From Pegoplata infirma (taxonomy: Eukaryota > Arthropoda > Insecta > Diptera > Anthomyiidae), in the NCBI GenBank assembly GCA_963921195.1, contig OY992537.1, forward strand, positions 76,886,894-76,950,893: a stretch of 64,000 bases of DNA, in the 5' to 3' direction. Below the pieces are notes generated by a model that was not told the origin of the DNA, searched no databases, and saw only the letters and a list, made by a program, of their open reading frames with translations. Positions 2,330 to 48,289 of this stretch are shown here, piece after piece (the first letter of the stretch is position 1; each line of letters begins with the position of its first letter). The position numbers and the translations under genes were made by a program.

Positions 2330-3250
2330 TGTTTGTAGATAAAAAAAGTTTTTGATGAAAAAAGTTTTTAATGAAATAAAGATTGTTGTTGAAAAAAAAT
2401 GTTGATGAAAATATAAATGAAAAAAAAAAAATATTGATGAAAAAAAAATATTGATAAAAAAAATATTGATGAAAAAAAATATATTGATGAAGAAAAAAAA
2501 ATATTGATGAAAAAAATATCGACGAAAAAAAGAATATTGATGAAAAAAAATATTGATGAAAAAAATATTGACAAATATTGATGAAAAAAATATATTGATT
2601 GAAAAAAATATTGATGAAAAAAATATTGACGAAAAAAAGAATATTGATGAAAAAAATATTGGTGAAAAAAATATTGATTAAAAAAATATTGAATTAAGCA
2701 AGTATTGATAAAAAAAATATTGATGAACAAATATTGATGACAAAAAAATTTTTGATGAAAAAAAAATATTGATGAAAAAAAATTTTGATAAAAAAAAATA
2801 TTGAGTAAAAAAAAATTAATGAAAAAAAAAATAATAATGAAAAAAAAAATATATATTGATAAAAAAAATATTGATGAAAAAAATATTCAGGAAAAGAAGA
2901 AAAAAATATTGATGAAAAAAAAAATTATTATAAAAAATTTTGATGACAAAACAAATTGTTGAAAAATAATAATGTTACGTTTTATTGATGAACAAATATT
3001 GATGACAAAAAAATTTTTGATGAAAAAAAAATATTGATGAAAAAAAATTTTGATAAAAAAAAATATTGAGTAAAAAAAAATTAATGAAAAAAAAAATAAT
3101 AATGAAAAAAAAATATATATTGATAAAAAAAATATTGATGAAAAAAATATTCAGGAAAAGAAGAAAAAAATATTGATGAAAAAAAAAATTATTATAAAAA
3201 ATTTTGATGACAAAACAAATTGTTGAAAAATAATAATGTTACGTTTTATT
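2330..3250. repeat. GATGAAAAAAATATT minisatellite with a 264-bp duplication
   Basis: An irregular 14-17 bp unit (GATGAAAAAAATATT and variants) is repeated throughout. From about 2718 a 264-bp block is duplicated in tandem: 2718-2982 and 2983-3248 are nearly identical, including the non-repetitive tail ending AATGTTACGTTTTATT. The same array plus tail recurs at 32515-33045. A long open frame through the array on the minus strand is a repeat artefact. Confidence 0.85.
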
Positions 3251-4163
3251 CACAAGCTGTTGAACATTTCTTTTTATTCACCACGAGGTGAATTATTATC
3301 CAAGTTACAAACCCAAGTTATCAAAATTTTTGGTTTTAAGAAAATTATACTTATTTTCTTTTTTGTTAATCGTTATCTTATATAGTCCAACTGAGGTGGC
3401 GTCCTGCATTTTTTTTTAATTAGACACCAGCCTAAAAACACTATAATGTTAAAAAAAAGTTTAATGAATTTAAAAGAACAAATTCTTTTTTATAATTTTT
3501 TTGACTGCCAAAAAAAGCGCCCAGTGTACTCTTTTTTCTTTTTTGCCTAATTGTTTTTCTTTTATCGTGTAAAAACATAGTCCGCTTAAAATTGGAGTAA
3601 ATCTTCCCCAGGGCACCGTGATTTATTAATTTTAAATTAAATTAAAAAATTTAATTTCAAGCAATTTTTAAAATCTTTTGAACGGTTTTCTAGATACCGC
3701 TATCTGAAATTTGCATAAAGGTGTTTCTTGGCGCCCTTCTATCAAAGTTTTTGGATTATTGATAAATTTCCACTAAATGAGTTTTGAAAAACTTTGAGAA
3801 AAATTATTCCAGCTGGATATCATATTTCTTTACTAATCAGTACGATAGTATTCCCAATTAGAAATGTCGTTAAGACATCTCAAAGACTTCCTTATGACAA
3901 TGTCAGTGTACCTGCTGACTGAAAAATATCTGACCATACAAAAAACCTTATGACACCTCCTGACTTTTTCAAGTATTTTGTCAAAATTCCTCGCCAACAA
4001 GTATGCAGGTAGTCAATAGTGTTGACTACATTATGACATGTACATATTACGTCTGAGATCGTCCAAAAACTTAAAATTTATTAATCACGCCTTTTAATTT
4101 ACACTACTTACTATTTTTATTTGTCCATTTCTTAAATTTAATTTTTTAAAACTTACTAGTTTT
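3251..4163. repeat. Flank of the minisatellite repeat; otherwise gene-free
   Basis: Positions 3251-3330 ('TTCACCACGAGGTGAAT', 'CCAAGTTACAAACCCAAG') match 32965-33040. Positions 3375-3440 ('AACTGAGGTGGCGTC', 'TTAGACACCAGC') match 35290-35345. This is therefore one dispersed repeat that has been split by later insertions at 33-35 kb. Positions 3795-3880 ('CATATTTCTTTACTAATCAGTACGATA') weakly resemble module A of the family-1 element described at 18933. Confidence 0.6.
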
Positions 4164-8764: not shown

Positions 8765-10378
8765 ATGAATCAACTGTTAGATGATAAAAATACGTATAAA
8801 ACAACAAGAATAGATCCTACTCAAAAACTACAAAGGACAAATAATAAATTAGTGATGGAACTTTTCAAGCAGAAATACATTACATTACATGAAAAAATAA
8901 AACTTACATCAAATTCAGCCAATGCCCCAAGACTATATGGATTGCCGAAGATACATAAACCTGATATACCGTTACGCCCAATATCTTCTTCTGTAGAAGT
9001 ACCGTGCTACAACCTCTCTAAACACATTGGAACCATTTTGAAAAACGTTATATTAGAAAAATATAACATAAAAAACTCCTTAGAACTAAAAACTAAACTA
9101 GACGCAATAATTTTGGACGATGACGAAATTCTTATTTCATTGGACGTGGTATCGTTATTTACAAACATACCTATACACCTAGCTATAAGTAACATAATGA
9201 ACCAGTGGGACACTATTAAGAAGCATACCACAATCCCAAGGCAACAATTTTTAAAAATTCTTCAATTTTGTCTTAATGACAACAATTACTTTATTTATGG
9301 TGATAAAATTTACAATCAAACGTACGGAATGCCCATGGGGAACCCACTGTCCCCGACTATTGCGGACATTGTCCTAGATAAACTTTTAGAAGAAACTACG
9401 GAGGAATTGAAAAAGGAGAACATACAAATGAAATTAATAACAAAGTACGTAGACGATCTTTTTGCCATTATAAAGAAAAACGACGAAGAAAGAATATTAA
9501 AATTATTCAACAACTATCACAATAAACTCAAATTTACGATTGAAAAAGAAATAGAAAATTCAATTCCATACCTTGATATGAAGATCATAAGGGAAAATAA
9601 TAAAATTATAACCGATTGGTATATGAAATCAATAGCTTCAGGACGCATAATAAATTTTCACTCAACACAACCATTTTCACAAAAGACCAATACTGCGACA
9701 AACTTTATCAATAAAGTTTTACAATTAAGTCACGAAAAATTCAAAACCAAAAATATAAAAACAATAAAAGAAATGTTATCAAATAACAACTATCCACACA
9801 ATATAATTAACGAATTAATAAACAAATCAATAAATCCCCAATCAGGGGAAAGAAACATAAACATAAACAATACATCTGGTAACACCAAATTCTATAGTGT
9901 ACCATATATACCAAAACTCACTGAAAACAAAAAGCTTAGAGAAATAATGGAAGACGAAGGAATAATTTTAGCACACAAAGCAAACAAAACTATAAATCCA
10001 CTTTTTACACAAACAAAAACAAAAATCAACAAAGAAGACCAAAGCAATGTAGTATACGAGATTAAGTGTGCAGGTAAAACCGATGAAAGCTGTGATAAAA
10101 TTTACATAGGAACAACAAAAAGAAATTTAGGAGTTAGAATGGCTGAACACGAAACGGACATCAAAAAGTACCGACTATCTACAGCGCTTGCCCAACACTG
10201 TTTTGAAAATTCACACACAGCTGATATTGAAGGAATAAGAATACTGCATAAAGAAAGAAAACAAAACAAACGATTTACATTAGAAAGCTTAAGTATACAA
10301 CAAAAAACAAATATAGCAATTAACAATAAGACAGACAAGGACAACGCTAATGCTAATTACAACATTGCACTTGTTTAA
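8765..10378 (+). CDS. Penelope-like element RT + GIY-YIG endonuclease, 5'-truncated
   Basis: Encodes 537 residues of the single PLE polyprotein, the reverse transcriptase and GIY-YIG endonuclease used for retrotransposition. Visible motifs: APRLYGLPKIHKP (54-66) and RPISS (71-75); motif A SLDVVSLF with Asp127; motif B GMPMGNPLSP (188-197); motif C YVDD (228-231). After a linker comes the nuclease: VVYEIKC (429-435), YIGTTKRNLGVRMAEH (447-462), and Cys435, Cys443, His478 and His484, which fit the CCHH finger of PLE nucleases. Known PLE proteins have a longer N-terminus. Here in-frame codons upstream of the Met reach a stop at 8741 after ITKYNTK, so the copy is 5'-truncated and the Met is just the first available. 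The 537 codons have no stop or frameshift, which suggests a fairly young insertion. A hammerhead-like motif follows at 10631-10695. Confidence 0.93.
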   Translation: MNQLLDDKNTYKTTRIDPTQKLQRTNNKLVMELFKQKYITLHEKIKLTSNSANAPRLYGLPKIHKPDIPLRPISSSVEVPCYNLSKHIGTILKNVILEKYNIKNSLELKTKLDAIILDDDEILISLDVVSLFTNIPIHLAISNIMNQWDTIKKHTTIPRQQFLKILQFCLNDNNYFIYGDKIYNQTYGMPMGNPLSPTIADIVLDKLLEETTEELKKENIQMKLITKYVDDLFAIIKKNDEERILKLFNNYHNKLKFTIEKEIENSIPYLDMKIIRENNKIITDWYMKSIASGRIINFHSTQPFSQKTNTATNFINKVLQLSHEKFKTKNIKTIKEMLSNNNYPHNIINELINKSINPQSGERNININNTSGNTKFYSVPYIPKLTENKKLREIMEDEGIILAHKANKTINPLFTQTKTKINKEDQSNVVYEIKCAGKTDESCDKIYIGTTKRNLGVRMAEHETDIKKYRLSTALAQHCFENSHTADIEGIRILHKERKQNKRFTLESLSIQQKTNIAINNKTDKDNANANYNIALV

Positions 10379-10630: not shown

Positions 10631-10695
10631 ATTCAATAAAAATTCCCCTGAAGATGTTGGAAAAATCCCAACGAAACGTCGGATAGAAAATGAAT
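10631..10695 (+). ncRNA. Hammerhead-ribozyme-like motif of the plus-strand PLE
   Basis: Outer stem I ATTCA (10631-10635) pairs with TGAAT (10691-10695). Inner stem I CC (10646-10647) pairs with GG (10681-10682). Core CTGAAGA is at 10648-10654, then one unpaired T. Stem II is GTTGG (10656-10660) with CCAAC (10668-10672), then GAAA (10673-10676), a two-base CG helix III, and cleavage dinucleotide TC (10679-10680). PLEs are known to carry hammerhead motifs in their terminal regions. The position just after the ORF fits this; activity is inferred. Confidence 0.7.
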
Positions 10696-11206: not shown

Positions 11207-11713
11207 TTAAGATAAAGCAACTCTATAACTGGCGCTAATGTTGTCGGTGTCTTGTTTTAAATTCATTGTTCGTTGTATATTTTGTTGTATTCGTAAACTT
11301 TCAATTGTAAATCTCTTTCTCTCCTTGCTTTCTTTGTCTAATATTCTAATGTTCTCAAAATTTGGTTCGTGTCCACTCTCCATAATATGTGTTGATAAAG
11401 CTGTGCTCATGTTTTTCTTTAAAATATCGTTTTTATGTTCACTCATCCTTGTGCCTAATGTTCGTTTTGTTGTGCCAATATATATTAAGTTGCAGTTTTG
11501 TTCTGCGTTCCCCTTGCACTGCACTTCATACACAACATTGCTTTGTTGTTCTTTCTCTACTCGTGCCTTAACATTAGAAAAAATTGTATTAATTGTTGTA
11601 TTTGGTTTGTAAGCTAATTTTGTGTTTTTTGATTGTATTATTGCTTTGATGTTTTTTGCTTTGAATTTTTCAAAATAATCAACAAAAATTTGTGATTTTT
11701 TTTGGTTATTCAC
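11207..11713 (-). pseudogene. 3' fragment of a second Penelope-like element (GIY-YIG domain)
   Basis: A 168-codon open frame that is mostly the C-terminal nuclease of a PLE: LAYKP (33-37), SNVVYEVQC (58-66) with Cys66 and Cys74, YIGTTKRTLGTRMSEH (78-93), His109 and His115, then a FTIESLRIQQ tail matching FTLESLSIQQ in the PLE at 8765. The two proteins are clearly related but diverged (roughly half the residues match by eye), so they are different PLE families. The RT domain is absent. The first ~17 codons (11664-11713) belong to flanking repeat DNA also found near 15860-15906, so the true PLE break is near 11663 and the start is a chance fusion. It converges on the plus-strand PLE. Confidence 0.85.
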
Positions 11714-32494: not shown

Positions 32495-32514
32495 ACTTGA
32501 TCAAAAAGAAAAAA

Positions 32515-33045
32515 ATATAAAAAAAAAATTATGAAAAAAAAATTAATAAAAAAAATATTGATGAAAAACAAAAAAATTTATGAAAAAAAATAATGATGAA
32601 AAAATATTGATGAAAAAAAAAATATGGATGAAAAAAAAAATTATGATGGAAAAAAATAATGATAAAAAAAATATTGATGAAAAAAAAAAATATTTAAAAA
32701 AAACATTGATAAAAAAAATATAAGTGGTATTCAGAGTCTTACTTGCCAGCCCTGGCACTGGTGGTAAAAGAGCACTTTTTAAAATTACTTTTCCAAATAC
32801 ATGTATTTTTTGAAAGAAGTACTCTTTTGCTACATTACTAGGGCTGGCAACAAGATTCTGAATACCTCTATTGATAAAAAAAAAATATTGATGAAAAAAA
32901 GACTGATTAAAAAAAAATATTGATTAAAAAAAATATTGGTGAAATATAATTAAGTTACGTTTTATTCACCAACTGGTGAATATTTTTTTTATTCACCATG
33001 AGGTGAATTATAATCCAAGTAACAAACCCAAGTTACTAAAATTTT
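32515..33045. repeat. GATGAAAAAAATATT minisatellite, second locus
   Basis: Same array and 3' tail as 2330-3330. It is interrupted by a 141-bp MITE at 32726-32866. The tail 'TTCACCATGAGGTGAATTAT' matches 3278-3296. Confidence 0.75.
32726..32866. mobile_element. 141-bp MITE, GGTATTCAGA ends
   Basis: GGTATTCAGAGTCTTACTTG at the left and CAAGATTCTGAATACC at the right are inverted repeats that continue through GCCAGCCCTG/AGGGCTGGC. It sits within the minisatellite and, from that context, is a clean later insertion. Confidence 0.75.
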
Positions 33046-33061
33046 TTAAACAAGACAAACC

Positions 33062-33134
33062 GACATTTAAAATCCTACTGAAGATGACACTAACTGGGGT
33101 GTTTGAAACCGGTATAGGAAATACCAGAAATGTC
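33062..33134 (+). ncRNA. Hammerhead-ribozyme-like motif (family 3, copy 1)
   Basis: Outer stem I GACATTT (33062-33068) pairs with AAATGTC (33128-33134). Inner stem I CCTA (33074-33077) pairs with TAGG (33115-33118). Core CTGAAGA (33078-33084) matches the CUGANGA consensus. Stem II is GACAC with GTGTT, bounded by a T-T mismatch. Then GAAA (33105-33108), self-complementary CCGG (33109-33112), and cleavage dinucleotide TA (33113-33114). The internal loop in stem I is where type I hammerheads make tertiary contacts. Confidence 0.78.
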
Positions 33135-33271
33135 TATAATTTTTAGAAATTCAATTTTTCTTCTGCATTTTTTCAACTTGAACCCTTATAACAAATATAA
33201 TTTGAGCCCGTGCTCGATCTGTACTTACAGAAAAAATCAAATAAAATTACTGACAAAATATGTCGCCATTA

Positions 33272-33718
33272 AGCCCCTATGACACTACATTTTTTGTATT
33301 GATGAAATTTATGTGAACAGTGCAAATATATCACCATAGGAAATCTGAACAAGTGTGAAGAGTAAAAGAATACTAATAAAAAATAGTAAACGTCAAATTT
33401 TATTCTTGTGTTATCGATAAATTTGGTTATCAAATGACTGAATGTCAAAAAAAATGTAAAAAATTTACATATTTTTTTGACATTTATGCATTAATGATAT
33501 TAAGTGTTGCCAACTTTTCTGTTTTTCATTAAATGAAGCGATTTTTTGTTTGTTTTTGGCGGTTATTTGAATTTATACAGAGGGTTTTTATTAAAAAGAA
33601 AGTAATCACCACTATTTGTTTGTTTATTTTATGTTTCTTTTTCATTTCTTCTTTTGCTGTTTCATTCTTTCAATTAATAAAAAATAAAATACAAAAAAAA
33701 TCTAGTGTCATAGGAGCT
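33272..33718. mobile_element. PIF/Harbinger-type MITE with TTA duplication
   Basis: AGCCCCTATGACACTA at the left and TAGTGTCATAGGAGCT at the right are inverted with one mismatch. They are flanked by TTA at 33269-33271 and 33719-33721. Inserted in the family-3 unit. The open frame from 33533 crosses its right end and is not a real gene. Confidence 0.75.
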
Positions 33719-33953
33719 TTAGGCACGTCTCCGAAACAGAAAATGCAAATTCCTTCATTTGTGTCTGCAATTCCAGATCATGTTGGTAACCCTTGCGAAA
33801 TAATGTAAGAGTCAAAAAAGTTGAAAGAAAGTATGAGGTGAGGTTGAGATTGCTAGAAATAGAATTGTAGTGTTGGAAACTGTCAAAATTTATTCTGTAG
33901 AAACTATAAATATTCACATATATAAAAAACCGTTTTCATTAACAAGACAAACA

Positions 33954-34026
33954 GACATTTAAAATCCTACTGAAGATGACACTAACTGGGGTGTTTGAAA
34001 CCGGTATAGGAAATACCAGAAATGTC
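33954..34026 (+). ncRNA. Hammerhead-ribozyme-like motif (family 3, copy 2)
   Basis: Identical in every paired and core position to 33062-33134: GACATTT (33954-33960)/AAATGTC (34020-34026), CCTA (33966-33969)/TAGG (34007-34010), CTGAAGA (33970-33976), GAAA (33997-34000), CCGG (34001-34004), TA (34005-34006). Confidence 0.78.
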
Positions 34027-34084
34027 TATAATTTTTAGAAATTCAATTTTTCTTCTGCATTTTTTCAACTTGAACCCTTATAAC

Positions 34085-35190
34085 TAGGGCAAGTACTTTA
34101 ATGAAAATGCATGTTTTTACTCGGCACTCCAAACATAACATAAATAAAATATCTATCCGAATCTATAAATTTGCAATAAAATGGCATCGATTTGTAGTTG
34201 CATATTTTTGCATATTTTGGTATAAATGCATATTTTTGCATATTTTCATATAAATTGCACTTTTTTTAATTTTCATAAAAATTTTTTAAAAAATCATTCC
34301 AAAACCCTTATATAATCCAAAACCGATCCACTATTTCTTGGAAAAAATATTATTTTCTTATAGACGTGATATTCTGAGACATTTCTTTAGAAATCTGTTT
34401 ATTTGTTTCTGAAAATAAAATTTTTAGATTCTTAAAAAAATTTTAAATTTTCCAATTCTGAAACATTTTACTATTCGAAAAGAAAAATTTCTTAGAATTT
34501 AAAAATATCTAACAGGAAAATTGTCCCAGAAATGCAACAAAAATATCTAACTTTTGTCATTCTCCTGGTCAGATGGTTATTGAATTTTAGGGAAATTTGC
34601 ACATTAGTTTAGAAAATGTAAAAAAAAATAGGATGGGTTTTACCTTGAATTCACGTGTTGGACAAAAATATTTTACAAAGTATTTTTGTGTCTCAAATAA
34701 TTTTTTAGCTCAAAAAAAATTTACAACCAAAAATTATATATTTTTCTTTTTCAAAAATTGCTAAAGAAGTATTTGACTCAAAATTAAATATTTTTAGTAA
34801 ACATTTTGAAACATTTTTTTTACGTTGAAGTAGAACTTTAATTTTCTACTGTTTATTTATAAAATTTGTTCCAGAAATTGATTCTGGTTCGACTCTAAAG
34901 AAAATTTGTTCAATTTAAAGTTTTTATGTCAATAAAAAAATATTTTTATATTAAAAGCTGTGCCCACTCAAAAAAACATTCGTTTAATAGTGTAGAGGGC
35001 ATTAAAATATTTGAAAAATTTAATTTATGTTAACAAAACTCTCTTTTAGTAAAAGAATTTTATTGTTAAAATACATATTTTTAAATTTTAAGTGCATATT
35101 TTTTAAATTTTAAGTGCATATTTTTGGTTTTTAGAAGCATATTATAGGCACATATTTTCGATTTTTAGGTGCATGAAAGTACTTGCCCTA
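34085..35190. mobile_element. hAT-type MITE with 8-bp TSD (copy 1)
   Basis: Ends are TAGGGCAAGTACTTTAATG and the inverted TAGGGCAAGTACTTTCATG. It is flanked by the perfect 8-bp duplication CTTATAAC (34077-34084 and 35191-35198). Removing it restores the host sequence seen at 33190-33200. Next to the ends are runs of 'ATATGCAAAAATATGCA'. hAT elements make 8-bp duplications and commonly start TAGGG/CAGGG. Confidence 0.9.
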
Positions 35191-35735
35191 CTTATAACAA
35201 ATATAATTTGAGCCCGTGCTCGATCTGTACTTACAGAAAAAATCAAAAAAGAAAACAGTTATTCTTATTTTATTTTTTGGTAATCGTTAGATTATAAAGT
35301 CAAACTGAGGTAACGTCTTCCAAGATTTTTAAAATTAGACACCAGCATAAAACATCATTTTAAAAAAAAAATTGTAAATTTTTAATACTGTTGAGTAAAA
35401 AAAATTCTCAATTTTGCAAAAATACTCGATTTTGCACCTGTAAACGATTTAAGTATGCCAACAAAATTGAGTAAATTTTTAATTGACACAACTAAAACTT
35501 GACTCAAAATTTTTTATTGACACAATAATATTTTTATTGACACAATAATATTTTTTTTTTATTAAGTTTTTAATTGTGACAAGTAAAAATTTACTCAAAA
35601 TTTATCATTTTTTTAAGTTTAAAAAATTTTAAAATTTTTTTTACATTCTTTTTTTCAAAATTTTTTACAAAAAACTATAAACTAAATGAGAATTCATAAA
35701 ACTAAGAGAATAAAAAAAAATTAGAAAATATATTA

Positions 35736-38460: not shown

Positions 38461-38650
38461 TCCTAAGTTCATCTCAGCAGATTTTAGAAAATCACTGTTG
38501 GTCAATCAAACATCAAACCATACATACATATATTTCACAACTTCTGTATTTCTCATTTAACGTATGAAATATCTTGAATATTATATTTGGTTTGATGTTT
38601 GATTGAACAACAGTGATTCTCTGAAGTCTGCTGATGATCCCTTAGTTTTC
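38461..38650. repeat. Facing pair of family-2 3' fragments
   Basis: 'GGTTTGATGTTTGATTGA' with 'TCTGCTGA' appears on the plus strand (38590-38636). Its reverse complement appears at 38466-38518. The same sequence precedes the intact family-2 hammerhead at 47965-48021. The CTGATGA core begins here but GAAA and helix III are missing, so both motifs are broken. Confidence 0.6.
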
Positions 38651-47346: not shown

Positions 47347-47463
47347 TATGCTTAAAATAATTTTTCAGATGTTTGAGTATTTGGTAACATTATTGAATTG
47401 GAGTGGAAAAAAGTCTACGTATTATAAATATTTTTATTTTTAAATGTTGTTTTTTTATTTTTA

Positions 47464-48172
47464 GTACCAAAAGGTACATAAAAATAAAATGTATTTATTC
47501 GGCCTTTATATATGTATATATATTCGATTAGAGTTTTATTCTAGTTCGAGGCCCAAAAATATTTCTATATATGATATTGTCATAATAGAGTATTTTTAAT
47601 TTATTGCTTTAATAGAGTATAATAGAGTATTTTTAATTTATTGCCTCGAACTAGAATAAAACTCTAATCGAATATATATACATATATAAAGGCCGAATAA
47701 ATACATTTTATTTTTATGTACCTTTTGGTACTAAAAATAAAAAAACAACATTTAACACAAAGTTTAGTACGACTTATCCTACCAACACTATTGTTTGGTT
47801 AGGTACTGTTGTTATTGTAAAATAACAGCAACACATATATTAATAATTACCGATGGTGATTTAGTATATACAATTTTTGCTTTAAAAGAGTTATTTTTGT
47901 TGGAAAACAGATTTCGGACCTTCATAATAGTATTTTTCAAATAACTTGTGAAATATATCAAATATTATGTCTGGTTTGATGTTTGATTTACCAACGATGA
48001 TTTTCTAAAGTCTGCTGAAGATTCCTTAGTGGGGATGAAACTGATCAGTACAGACATACTATGAGATGAGTAACTTTTTTAAAGCAATAAATTAAAAATA
48101 CTCTATTATGACAATATCATATATAGAAATATTTTTGGGCCTCGAACTAGAAAAAAACTCTAATCGAATATA
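47464..48172 (+). mobile_element. Family-2 retrozyme-like element
   Basis: Order: inverted B'-A' (47464-47610), then A' end plus B' ('CCTCGAACTAGAATAAAAC', 'AAAGGCCGAATAAATAC'), module C', a hammerhead-like motif (48010-48055), and A' again (48085-48172). The layout is that of family 1, including the inverted module at the 5' side, but with only small patches of similarity such as CCTCGA.C.AGAAT. No coding capacity. Confidence 0.75.
48010..48055 (+). ncRNA. Hammerhead-ribozyme-like motif (family 2)
   Basis: Stem I GTCTG (48010-48014) pairs perfectly with CAGAC (48051-48055). Core CTGAAGA (48015-48021) fits CUGANGA. Stem II TCC (48023-48025)/GGA (48033-48035), with a T-T mismatch below it and a T-G above. 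GAAA is at 48037-48040. Helix III is the 8-base self-complementary CTGATCAG (48041-48048). Cleavage dinucleotide TA is at 48049-48050. All catalytic-core bases are consensus. Confidence 0.75.
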
Positions 48173-48289
48173 TATATTTTTATTTTTGTTTAAAGGTAGA
48201 AAAATCATCGTCAGAAAAACGATTTTAAGGAATAAGTATAAATAAATAAAGTCAAAATATACCATGAAAATGCAAAACATTGAGCATTT

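Follow-up and report, generated by a model that had tools for sequence, protein, structure and literature searches.

The closest described relatives of the element analysed in this work are the metazoan non-LTR retrozymes, a retrozyme class with circular RNAs described by Cervera & de la Pena in 2020, for which the available parts of the paper name Penelope-like elements (PLEs) as "a strong candidate" for the helper, from shared features and co-occurrence and without proof, and mention LINEs among the possible helpers (PMC7229834). Statements that retrozymes may rely on PLEs are also found in the accessible portions of two other papers (PMC11722881, PMC8969392), and a further one, as far as its available text goes, reports no conserved motif in the repeats that would identify the helper (PMC7761336). 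The PLEs themselves follow distinctive rules of insertion. According to the available parts of the respective sources, a purified PLE protein cuts and extends both strands of the target, reverse transcription begins at two adjacent internal sites that match the "tail", and the PLE hammerhead needed protein for its cleavage (PMC11167929), while insertions exhibit a pLTR in inverted orientation, a one-sided tail of 31 bp and target site duplications (TSDs) of 8-10 bp, with insertions devoid of TSDs also recorded (PMC3846280). Type I hammerhead variants without most of helix III have been described for PLEs (PMC7761336, in part), and a helix III comprising one pair with a palindromic tetraloop is found in axolotl (PMC7229834, in part).

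Here we describe a locus of Pegoplata infirma that contains one copy of a young non-coding mobile element, whose RNA, judging from its sequence, probably cuts itself into a 442-base circle that is rewritten into DNA by a Penelope-type enzyme. The window, i.e. the whole stretch of 64,000 nucleotides that was analysed, corresponds to C2:76886894-76950893 of the 1.384-Gb assembly (813 contigs). The whole insertion (33049-35247, plus strand), delimited by the repeat boundaries and by an empty paralogous site, comprises 1.44 units and two MITEs. It begins with the first, pseudo-LTR-like copy of the repeat (33049-33241; u1-193 in the unit coordinates used throughout, where u1 is 33049 and the predicted cut falls at u66|u67), which is followed by the remainder of the unit (33242-33940, u194-442), split by a 447-bp MITE at 33272-33718 with the TIR AGCCCCTATGACACTA and the TSD TTA, which by these features we take to belong to the Harbinger/PIF superfamily. 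The second copy of the repeat is likewise interrupted: its first part (33941-34084, u1-144) is separated from the last (35199-35247, u145-193), which ends at one of the two 3' sites discussed below (site A), by a 1106-bp MITE at 34085-35190 with the TIR TAGGGCAAGTACTTT and the 8-bp TSD CTTATAAC, presumably a member of the hAT superfamily by the same rule. The repeat is thus longer than the earlier note had it, and its two copies differ at a single one of 193 sites (33061 C vs 33953 A). No ORF of at least 110 aa is present within 33049-35247. Removal of the Harbinger-type MITE with its TSD leaves 892-450=442 bp, in agreement with the unit length proposed before; a 442-nt monomer would come from the unit without the MITE, whereas the window copy as it stands would release about 892 nt.

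The flanks of the insertion align to a copy of the target repeat that lacks it (3161-3458, plus strand) up to 33046 and again from 35249. This paralogue lacks some six of the target bases (GGTTTT), and the window copy consequently exhibits no clear TSD. A degenerate TTGATGAAAAAAAATA repeat forms two arrays in the window (2352-3250 and 32504-32940), each adjoining one copy of the target repeat.

Each copy of the repeat carries a hammerhead motif of type I with an open stem I, and, as had been claimed, the two are separated by exactly 892 bp and share the same core and stems. In motif 1 (33062-33134, plus strand; predicted cut 33114|33115), the outer stem is formed by GACATTT (33062-33068) and AAATGTC (33128-33134) and the inner one by TCCTA (33073-33077) and TAGGA (33115-33119), which gives a stem I of 5+7 bp. 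The core consists of CTGAAGA (33078-33084), GAAA (33105-33108) and TA (33113-33114). Stem II (GACACU/GGUGUU) has 6 bp, wobbles included, with a basal U.U; helix III consists of a single A-U pair capped by the palindromic CCGG (33109-33112). In sequence terms, the core of a type I hammerhead, the U-H cut site and all three helices are present, with helix III being minimal. Motif 2 (33954-34026, plus strand; predicted cut 34006|34007) is identical; since both are copies of one repeat, this identity provides no independent evidence for a ribozyme, and the two were counted as one event in the estimate of chance. A descriptor requiring exact CTGANGA and GAAA and stems of at least 3/3/1 matches the window three times (33078, 33970 and 48015), compared to a mean of 0.095 per dinucleotide shuffle, and a stricter one (stem I at least 4, stem II at least 5) finds any match in only 3/200 shuffles. 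The covariance-model search that the earlier note had suggested gave no support, as Rfam reports no hammerhead in the three motif regions, whether at the gathering threshold or with a permissive E<=10, and this held for a query of 101 bases as well. An exact search of viral contigs for the pattern yielded 0 matches.

The minimum free energy fold of a monomer pairs core bases with those of helix III and is better than the hammerhead fold by 3.1 kcal/mol, while the self-pairing of ACCGGU between two motifs is computed at -8.3 kcal/mol. This competition, together with the capacity of ACCGGU to pair between molecules, makes a dimeric form of cleavage likely. Small hammerhead variants of PLEs that cleave as dimers were reportedly the subject of a 2017 work by Lunse, Weinberg & Breaker, the likeness being suggested by its title. 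Folding of two strands revealed no helix III dimer, with a program that does not consider pseudoknots. Taken as a whole, the unit RNA is strongly self-paired (z of -3.15 as a linear and -3.36 as a circular molecule) and its GC content is 0.32, both values being calculated for one unit of the array L003.

The third descriptor match, at 48015 (plus strand), belongs to a separate hammerhead-like motif (approximately 48000-48055) with CTGAAGA..GAAA, TA and a 5-bp stem I, in which the palindromic CTGATCAG replaces helix III and a U.U is again found at the base of stem II. On the 5' side, this motif overlaps with the terminus of a repeat related to foldback elements. One such element, of about 316 bp and 86% identical to its own reverse complement, is located at 47440-47755, and an inverted, 97% identical copy of part of it at 48073-48176. 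A long hairpin at 38473-38635, to which the sequence at 47930-48030 is related, scores 49 bits against the miRNA family MIR859, far below the gathering score of 130, and is probably a foldback transposon.

The element is dispersed in the genome. With the repeat as the query, all 40 scored matches (of 350 candidates), located on six contigs and including the window's own, show 100% identity over 202 nt or more, and many are spaced by exactly 442 bp; with the internal part, 39 of the 40 scored matches (of 572 candidates) are at 99%. These copy numbers are lower bounds from a sample biased toward near-identical copies. The identity of these matches and the single difference between the two window repeats lend no support to the view, prompted by the inserted MITE, that the window copy itself is old. 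Outside the window we mapped at least 35 loci with 45 arms, which consist of dispersed tandem units of 440/442 bp with the hammerhead included; 37 of the 45 arms exceed one 442-nt unit, and the longest has 6.4. The search for further dimers was thus rewarded, and the interpretation as a retrozyme-like, non-autonomous retroelement stands. Two arrays were left out of the mapped set, C1:19036105 and C1:49925338-49928213, the latter with seven consecutive units listed. When one unit from each of 30 arms is compared, none of the 26 variable columns falls in the core or the stems of the hammerhead and one falls in its loops. Roughly half of the loci were found through their identity to the motif-containing repeat, and for this reason we make no claim that the hammerhead changes more slowly. 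Within the core, u34, the free N of CTGANGA, differs in five arms, and no other core position does so in two or more.

The 3' ends of 40 of the 45 arms fall at two sites, whose distances from the predicted cleavage site are fixed. Site A (u193-197, ATCAAATAAA; 33241-33245 in the window, plus strand), +127-131 nt past the cleavage site, was mapped in 25 arms, and site B (u142-143, after CCCTTATA(A); 33190-33191, plus strand), at +76 nt, in 15, the end of L069- being assigned from L073. The mapped ends span u193-203 and u141-155, respectively, and this spread is taken to be due to chance matches in A/T-rich flanks, the true ends being near ATCAAATAAA and at CCCTTATA(A). Under uniform placement, 39 of 44 ends within 29 of 442 positions would have a P of about 6e-41, where the windows were chosen after inspection of the data and the count precedes the resolution of L069-. 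The five remaining ends are those of L010+, L051-, two L037+ arms and L004+; the array L004/L003, of 4.67 units, ends at u406, at neither canonical site. On the other hand, the 5' ends of the 45 arms scatter (KS p 0.06), and two of them lie near the cleavage site (u64-70; 0.7 expected). Thus, of the expectation that genomic copies would start or end relative to the motif, the part concerning the 3' ends holds and that concerning the 5' ends does not. The scatter also led us to reject the possibility that the two window repeats are true LTRs.

Direct repeats accompany many of these insertions. The word shared by the two junctions has a mean length of 6.32 nt in 34 insertions, compared to 3.84 nt with mispaired flanks (0/20000 permutations), and words of at least 6 nt occur in 19 of the 34 vs 4.7 expected, where up to three element bases per side may be included; L004+, L010+, the second L037+ arm and the short second L048+ arm were dropped from this count. 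TSDs with cores delimited by eye are exemplified by L069 (AATCAAGT), L046 (TATTTTAC) and L040 (ATGTATTTTT). By no means does every insertion show a TSD, as the shared word has only 3 nt in 8/34 and 2 nt in 2/34.

The identity of the units within an arm bears on the nature of the template. We cut 65 complete motif-to-motif units from 30 arms, 16 of which have at least two. In these 16, all but one of the 65 within-arm pairs (64) are identical, whereas different arms differ by a mean of 3.6 and a maximum of 11 changes. Such identity is what would result if reverse transcription went several times around one circular RNA. It can be mimicked by a linear multimeric template if the source arrays were already homogeneous, and 224 of 2015 between-arm pairs are also identical, while 12 of the 16 multi-unit arms have a unit equal to one in another arm, so a homogeneous source RNA explains part of the pattern. 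The discriminating cases are L038, L039, L041 and L055, which have their own variants in all of their complete units, and in which common variants (e.g. a 2-base deletion at u240-241 or G/A at u339) are never mixed. In L037+, an arm with a single complete unit, two partial units differ at several positions.

In the light of these data, we regard as unlikely the alternative in which a parental array is read through and its linear, multimeric transcript serves uncut as the template, so that neither hammerheads nor circles would be needed at insertion. Such a template would be in line with the sharing of units between arms, with the lack of a clear enrichment of 5' ends at the cleavage site, and with the in vitro insertion of uncleaved RNA, including that of ribozyme mutants, by the PLE "PAc", as given in the available part of PMC11167929. 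However, new changes would arise in single units, so parental arrays should often be mixed, which is at odds both with the near-complete identity within arms that differ from each other and with the private variants of the four arms mentioned above; moreover, the first origin of the multimers would be left unexplained.

The window also contains a member of the candidate helper group. The ORF at 8765-10378 (plus strand) encodes a PLE protein with the reverse transcriptase domain RVT_1 (PF00078) and a GIY-YIG-like C-terminus: the latter is 49% identical to 11207-11713 on the minus strand, a region whose own GIY-YIG match lies just below the Pfam cut-off. Pfam detects no GIY-YIG domain in the ORF 8765-10378 itself, and comparison of the PLE protein with PDB sequences gave 0 matches. 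Downstream, a minimal motif resembling a hammerhead is present at 10648-10685 (plus strand; CTGAAGATG..GAAACGTCGGATA), after which comes the long variant of the PLE 3' tail; this PLE adjoins the region 11207-11713, which is a diverged remnant of a second PLE on the opposite strand. At least 82 PLE matches are present in the genome, with 81 of the 2095 candidates having been scored; open frames of 820-840 aa are found in many of these matches, and some are in tandem. Nine distinct PLE motifs show covariation of the stem II strands (GCTGG/CCAGC, GTCGG/CCGAC, GTTGG/CCAAC and GTAGG/CCTAC). In the tails of L087, L090, L096 and L098, the motifs are without a clean U-H cut site after GAAACG...GG (e.g. 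GGAAAAAA), and despite the stem II covariation they may be inactive as ribozymes.

The 3' ends of the resident PLEs also fall into two types. Sorted by eye, by a yes/no rule according to whether the tail has the AAGGTCGA strand, 13 of 23 ends are long and ten are short; the 23 comprise two sets of genomic ends (19 and three) and one end in the window, with three tandem-internal stretches left out. In the 16 measured ends, the distance from the end of the motif is +91 to +100 in six short and +127 to +144 in ten long ones, as upper bounds derived from relatives (L084, a long one, was compared only with a short relative; L089 with none, and L087, L090 and L096-L098 were left out). The retrozyme therefore resembles the PLEs in having two sites for its 3' end, with a spacing of some 30-55 nt; its long end (+127-131) falls within the range of the long PLE ends, and its short end (+76) is nearer the cleavage site than theirs. 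No significant sequence similarity accompanies this parallel: the retrozyme unit has no significant match to PLE DNA, and its tail shows no significant similarity to 12 PLE tails (16 to 136 of 300 shuffles score equally). A resemblance suggestive by eye, ATATAATTT..TACTTA, was not significant in the 12 tails, and we do not claim homology. It follows that any shared recognition would have to involve structure or short motifs.

Seven loci (L037, L040, L046, L047, L051, L052 and L069) contain twin arms in head-to-head orientation, separated by no more than 25 bp (the L010 pair, with a gap of 77 bp, was excluded). In five of the seven, both ends are canonical, and every one of these combines site A with site B, with neither A+A nor B+B found; L051 combines A, and L037 combines B, with an odd end. 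Likewise, all three PLE pairs that are head to head by order and strand (as read from their outer tails) join a long with a short end, and their outer junctions share words of 9-11 nt, a figure with no permutation control. The chance of five A+B combinations out of five is 0.025 (pA 0.6, pB 0.4), or 0.003 when the three PLE pairs are added, both being estimates from small samples that leave out the twins with odd ends. An inverted head-to-head arm with a one-sided tail is therefore common to most of the twins and to the PLE pairs. In L046 and L047, the two arms carry different sub-lineage variants, u339 among them, which makes two RNA templates per insertion likely and would not fit the self-priming model proposed for the inverted arms of PLEs in the available text of PMC3846280. 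A choice of opposite start sites on the two strands, if that is what the twins reflect, would have to be reconciled with the purified PLE protein, for which the accessible part of PMC11167929 reports no difference in start site between the strands.

The twins also bear on the identity of the helper. Copying of the retrozyme RNA by a different non-LTR element, such as a LINE of the L1, RTE or CR1 type, appears improbable to us. A fixed 3' region, variable 5' ends and TSDs would also fit target-primed synthesis by LINEs, which, as noted above, have been considered as helpers. In the twin priming of LINEs, the inverted arm starts at arbitrary positions of the RNA. Here, five of the seven twins start their arms at the same two sites, one each, like the resident PLEs. 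Finally, it is very improbable that we are dealing with an ordinary tandem satellite or a segmental duplication with a coincidental likeness to a hammerhead. The lack of an Rfam match, a helix III of one standard pair and the copying of both window motifs from one repeat would agree with this explanation, but the dispersal of many short arrays, the direct repeats at the array junctions, the empty paralogous site, the 3' ends fixed at PLE-like distances from the motif and the restriction of recurrent core variation to the free N of CTGANGA argue against it.

By the features tested, all of them read from sequence, the element joins the metazoan non-LTR retrozymes as a new member. Like those in the available text of PMC7229834, it forms short arrays of tandem units with a type I hammerhead, is non-coding and low in GC, has a self-paired RNA, is flanked by TSDs of more than 4 bp (in many of the genome insertions, none being clear in the window copy) and co-exists with PLEs. 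The one-pair helix III with its palindromic tetraloop recalls the axolotl HHR_Amex1, and the U.U mismatch at the base of stem II recalls HHR_Amex2 (PMC7229834, in part). Its unit of 442 bp is larger than the circles of about 170-400 nt given there, where repeats of 150-450 bp are cited, and the twin arrays and the two fixed 3' ends present here are not mentioned in the available part of that work. Nor did our literature search, whose scope excluded most subscription papers, reveal any paper on animal retrozymes with twin arms or mapped 3' ends. Compared with the plant LTR retrozymes, as covered by the accessible parts of PMC7761336 and PMC11722881, the element is likewise non-autonomous, with a hammerhead in direct repeats and a circular RNA in the model, whereas the plant elements have type III hammerheads, LTRs with PBS/PPT, 4-bp TSDs and a Gypsy-type helper; the open helix of stem I and the scattered 5' ends place our element outside that group. 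With PLEs, as far as they are covered in the available text of PMC11167929 and PMC3846280, it shares partial tandems of the pseudo-LTR type, the inverted head-to-head arm, the optional one-sided tail, TSDs of about 8-10 bp, 5' truncation and a minimal type I hammerhead near the starts of reverse transcription. It differs from PLEs by the absence of an ORF for the reverse transcriptase and GIY-YIG nuclease (hence it is not a PLE itself), by the lack of significant similarity to the resident ones and by the position of its short 3' end.

Hence, we consider it quite likely that the element is a non-autonomous, non-coding animal non-LTR retrozyme of 442 nt, mobilised by the PLE machinery via a circular RNA. 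The reading of PLEs as the helper is supported by the agreement with their published rules, namely the two start sites of reverse transcription and extension of both strands (PMC11167929, in part) and the inverted pLTR, the 31-bp one-sided tail and the TSDs of 8-10 bp (PMC3846280, in part). In the scenario we propose, genomic tandem copies would be transcribed, and the type I hammerheads, probably dimerised via the helix III palindrome ACCGGU, would cut the RNA into 442-nt monomers, which a host ligase would close into circles. A Penelope-like reverse transcriptase/endonuclease would bind the circle and open AT-rich target DNA with a short stagger, and reverse transcription would begin at one of the two fixed positions, some 76 or 130 nt downstream of the cut. 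Synthesis would then proceed around the circle, at least six times in the longest arm, with variable stops, yielding identical tandem units with variable 5' ends. Sometimes both DNA ends would be extended, usually from one site each, and the cDNAs would join head to head. The cleavage, the ligation into circles and the involvement of a PLE protein as the helper are all inferred from sequence.

Several observations speak against this PLE-based model: the missing Rfam match, the competing monomer fold, the lack of significant sequence similarity to PLEs and the short site at +76, as well as the 5/45 odd ends, the units shared between arms and the differing partial units of L037+. The published PLE, as reported in the available part of PMC11167929, showed no difference in start site between the strands and inserted uncleaved RNA. 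With somewhat less confidence than for the element itself, we favor the more general proposal that animal retrozymes are copied by the PLE machinery directly onto the target DNA, with several rounds of reverse transcription on the circle and with both ends of one break primed from opposite start sites, and with two templates in L046 and L047.

What is new here is the insertion record, i.e. the anatomy, the identity of units within arms, the two 3' sites, the scattered 5' ends, the twins, the junction repeats and the parallels with PLEs, which links an animal retrozyme to Penelope-type copying of the circle. This record bears on the question of which autonomous element moves the animal retrozymes. 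In this young family it is still readable: the identity of the units argues for circular templates, the start sites of reverse transcription are suggested by the two 3' ends, and the twin arms resemble those of the resident PLEs with open frames. The question of the helper can now be put to a direct test that needs a single circle and a single PLE protein, and the twin arms also bear on how the inverted arms are formed in the PLEs themselves.
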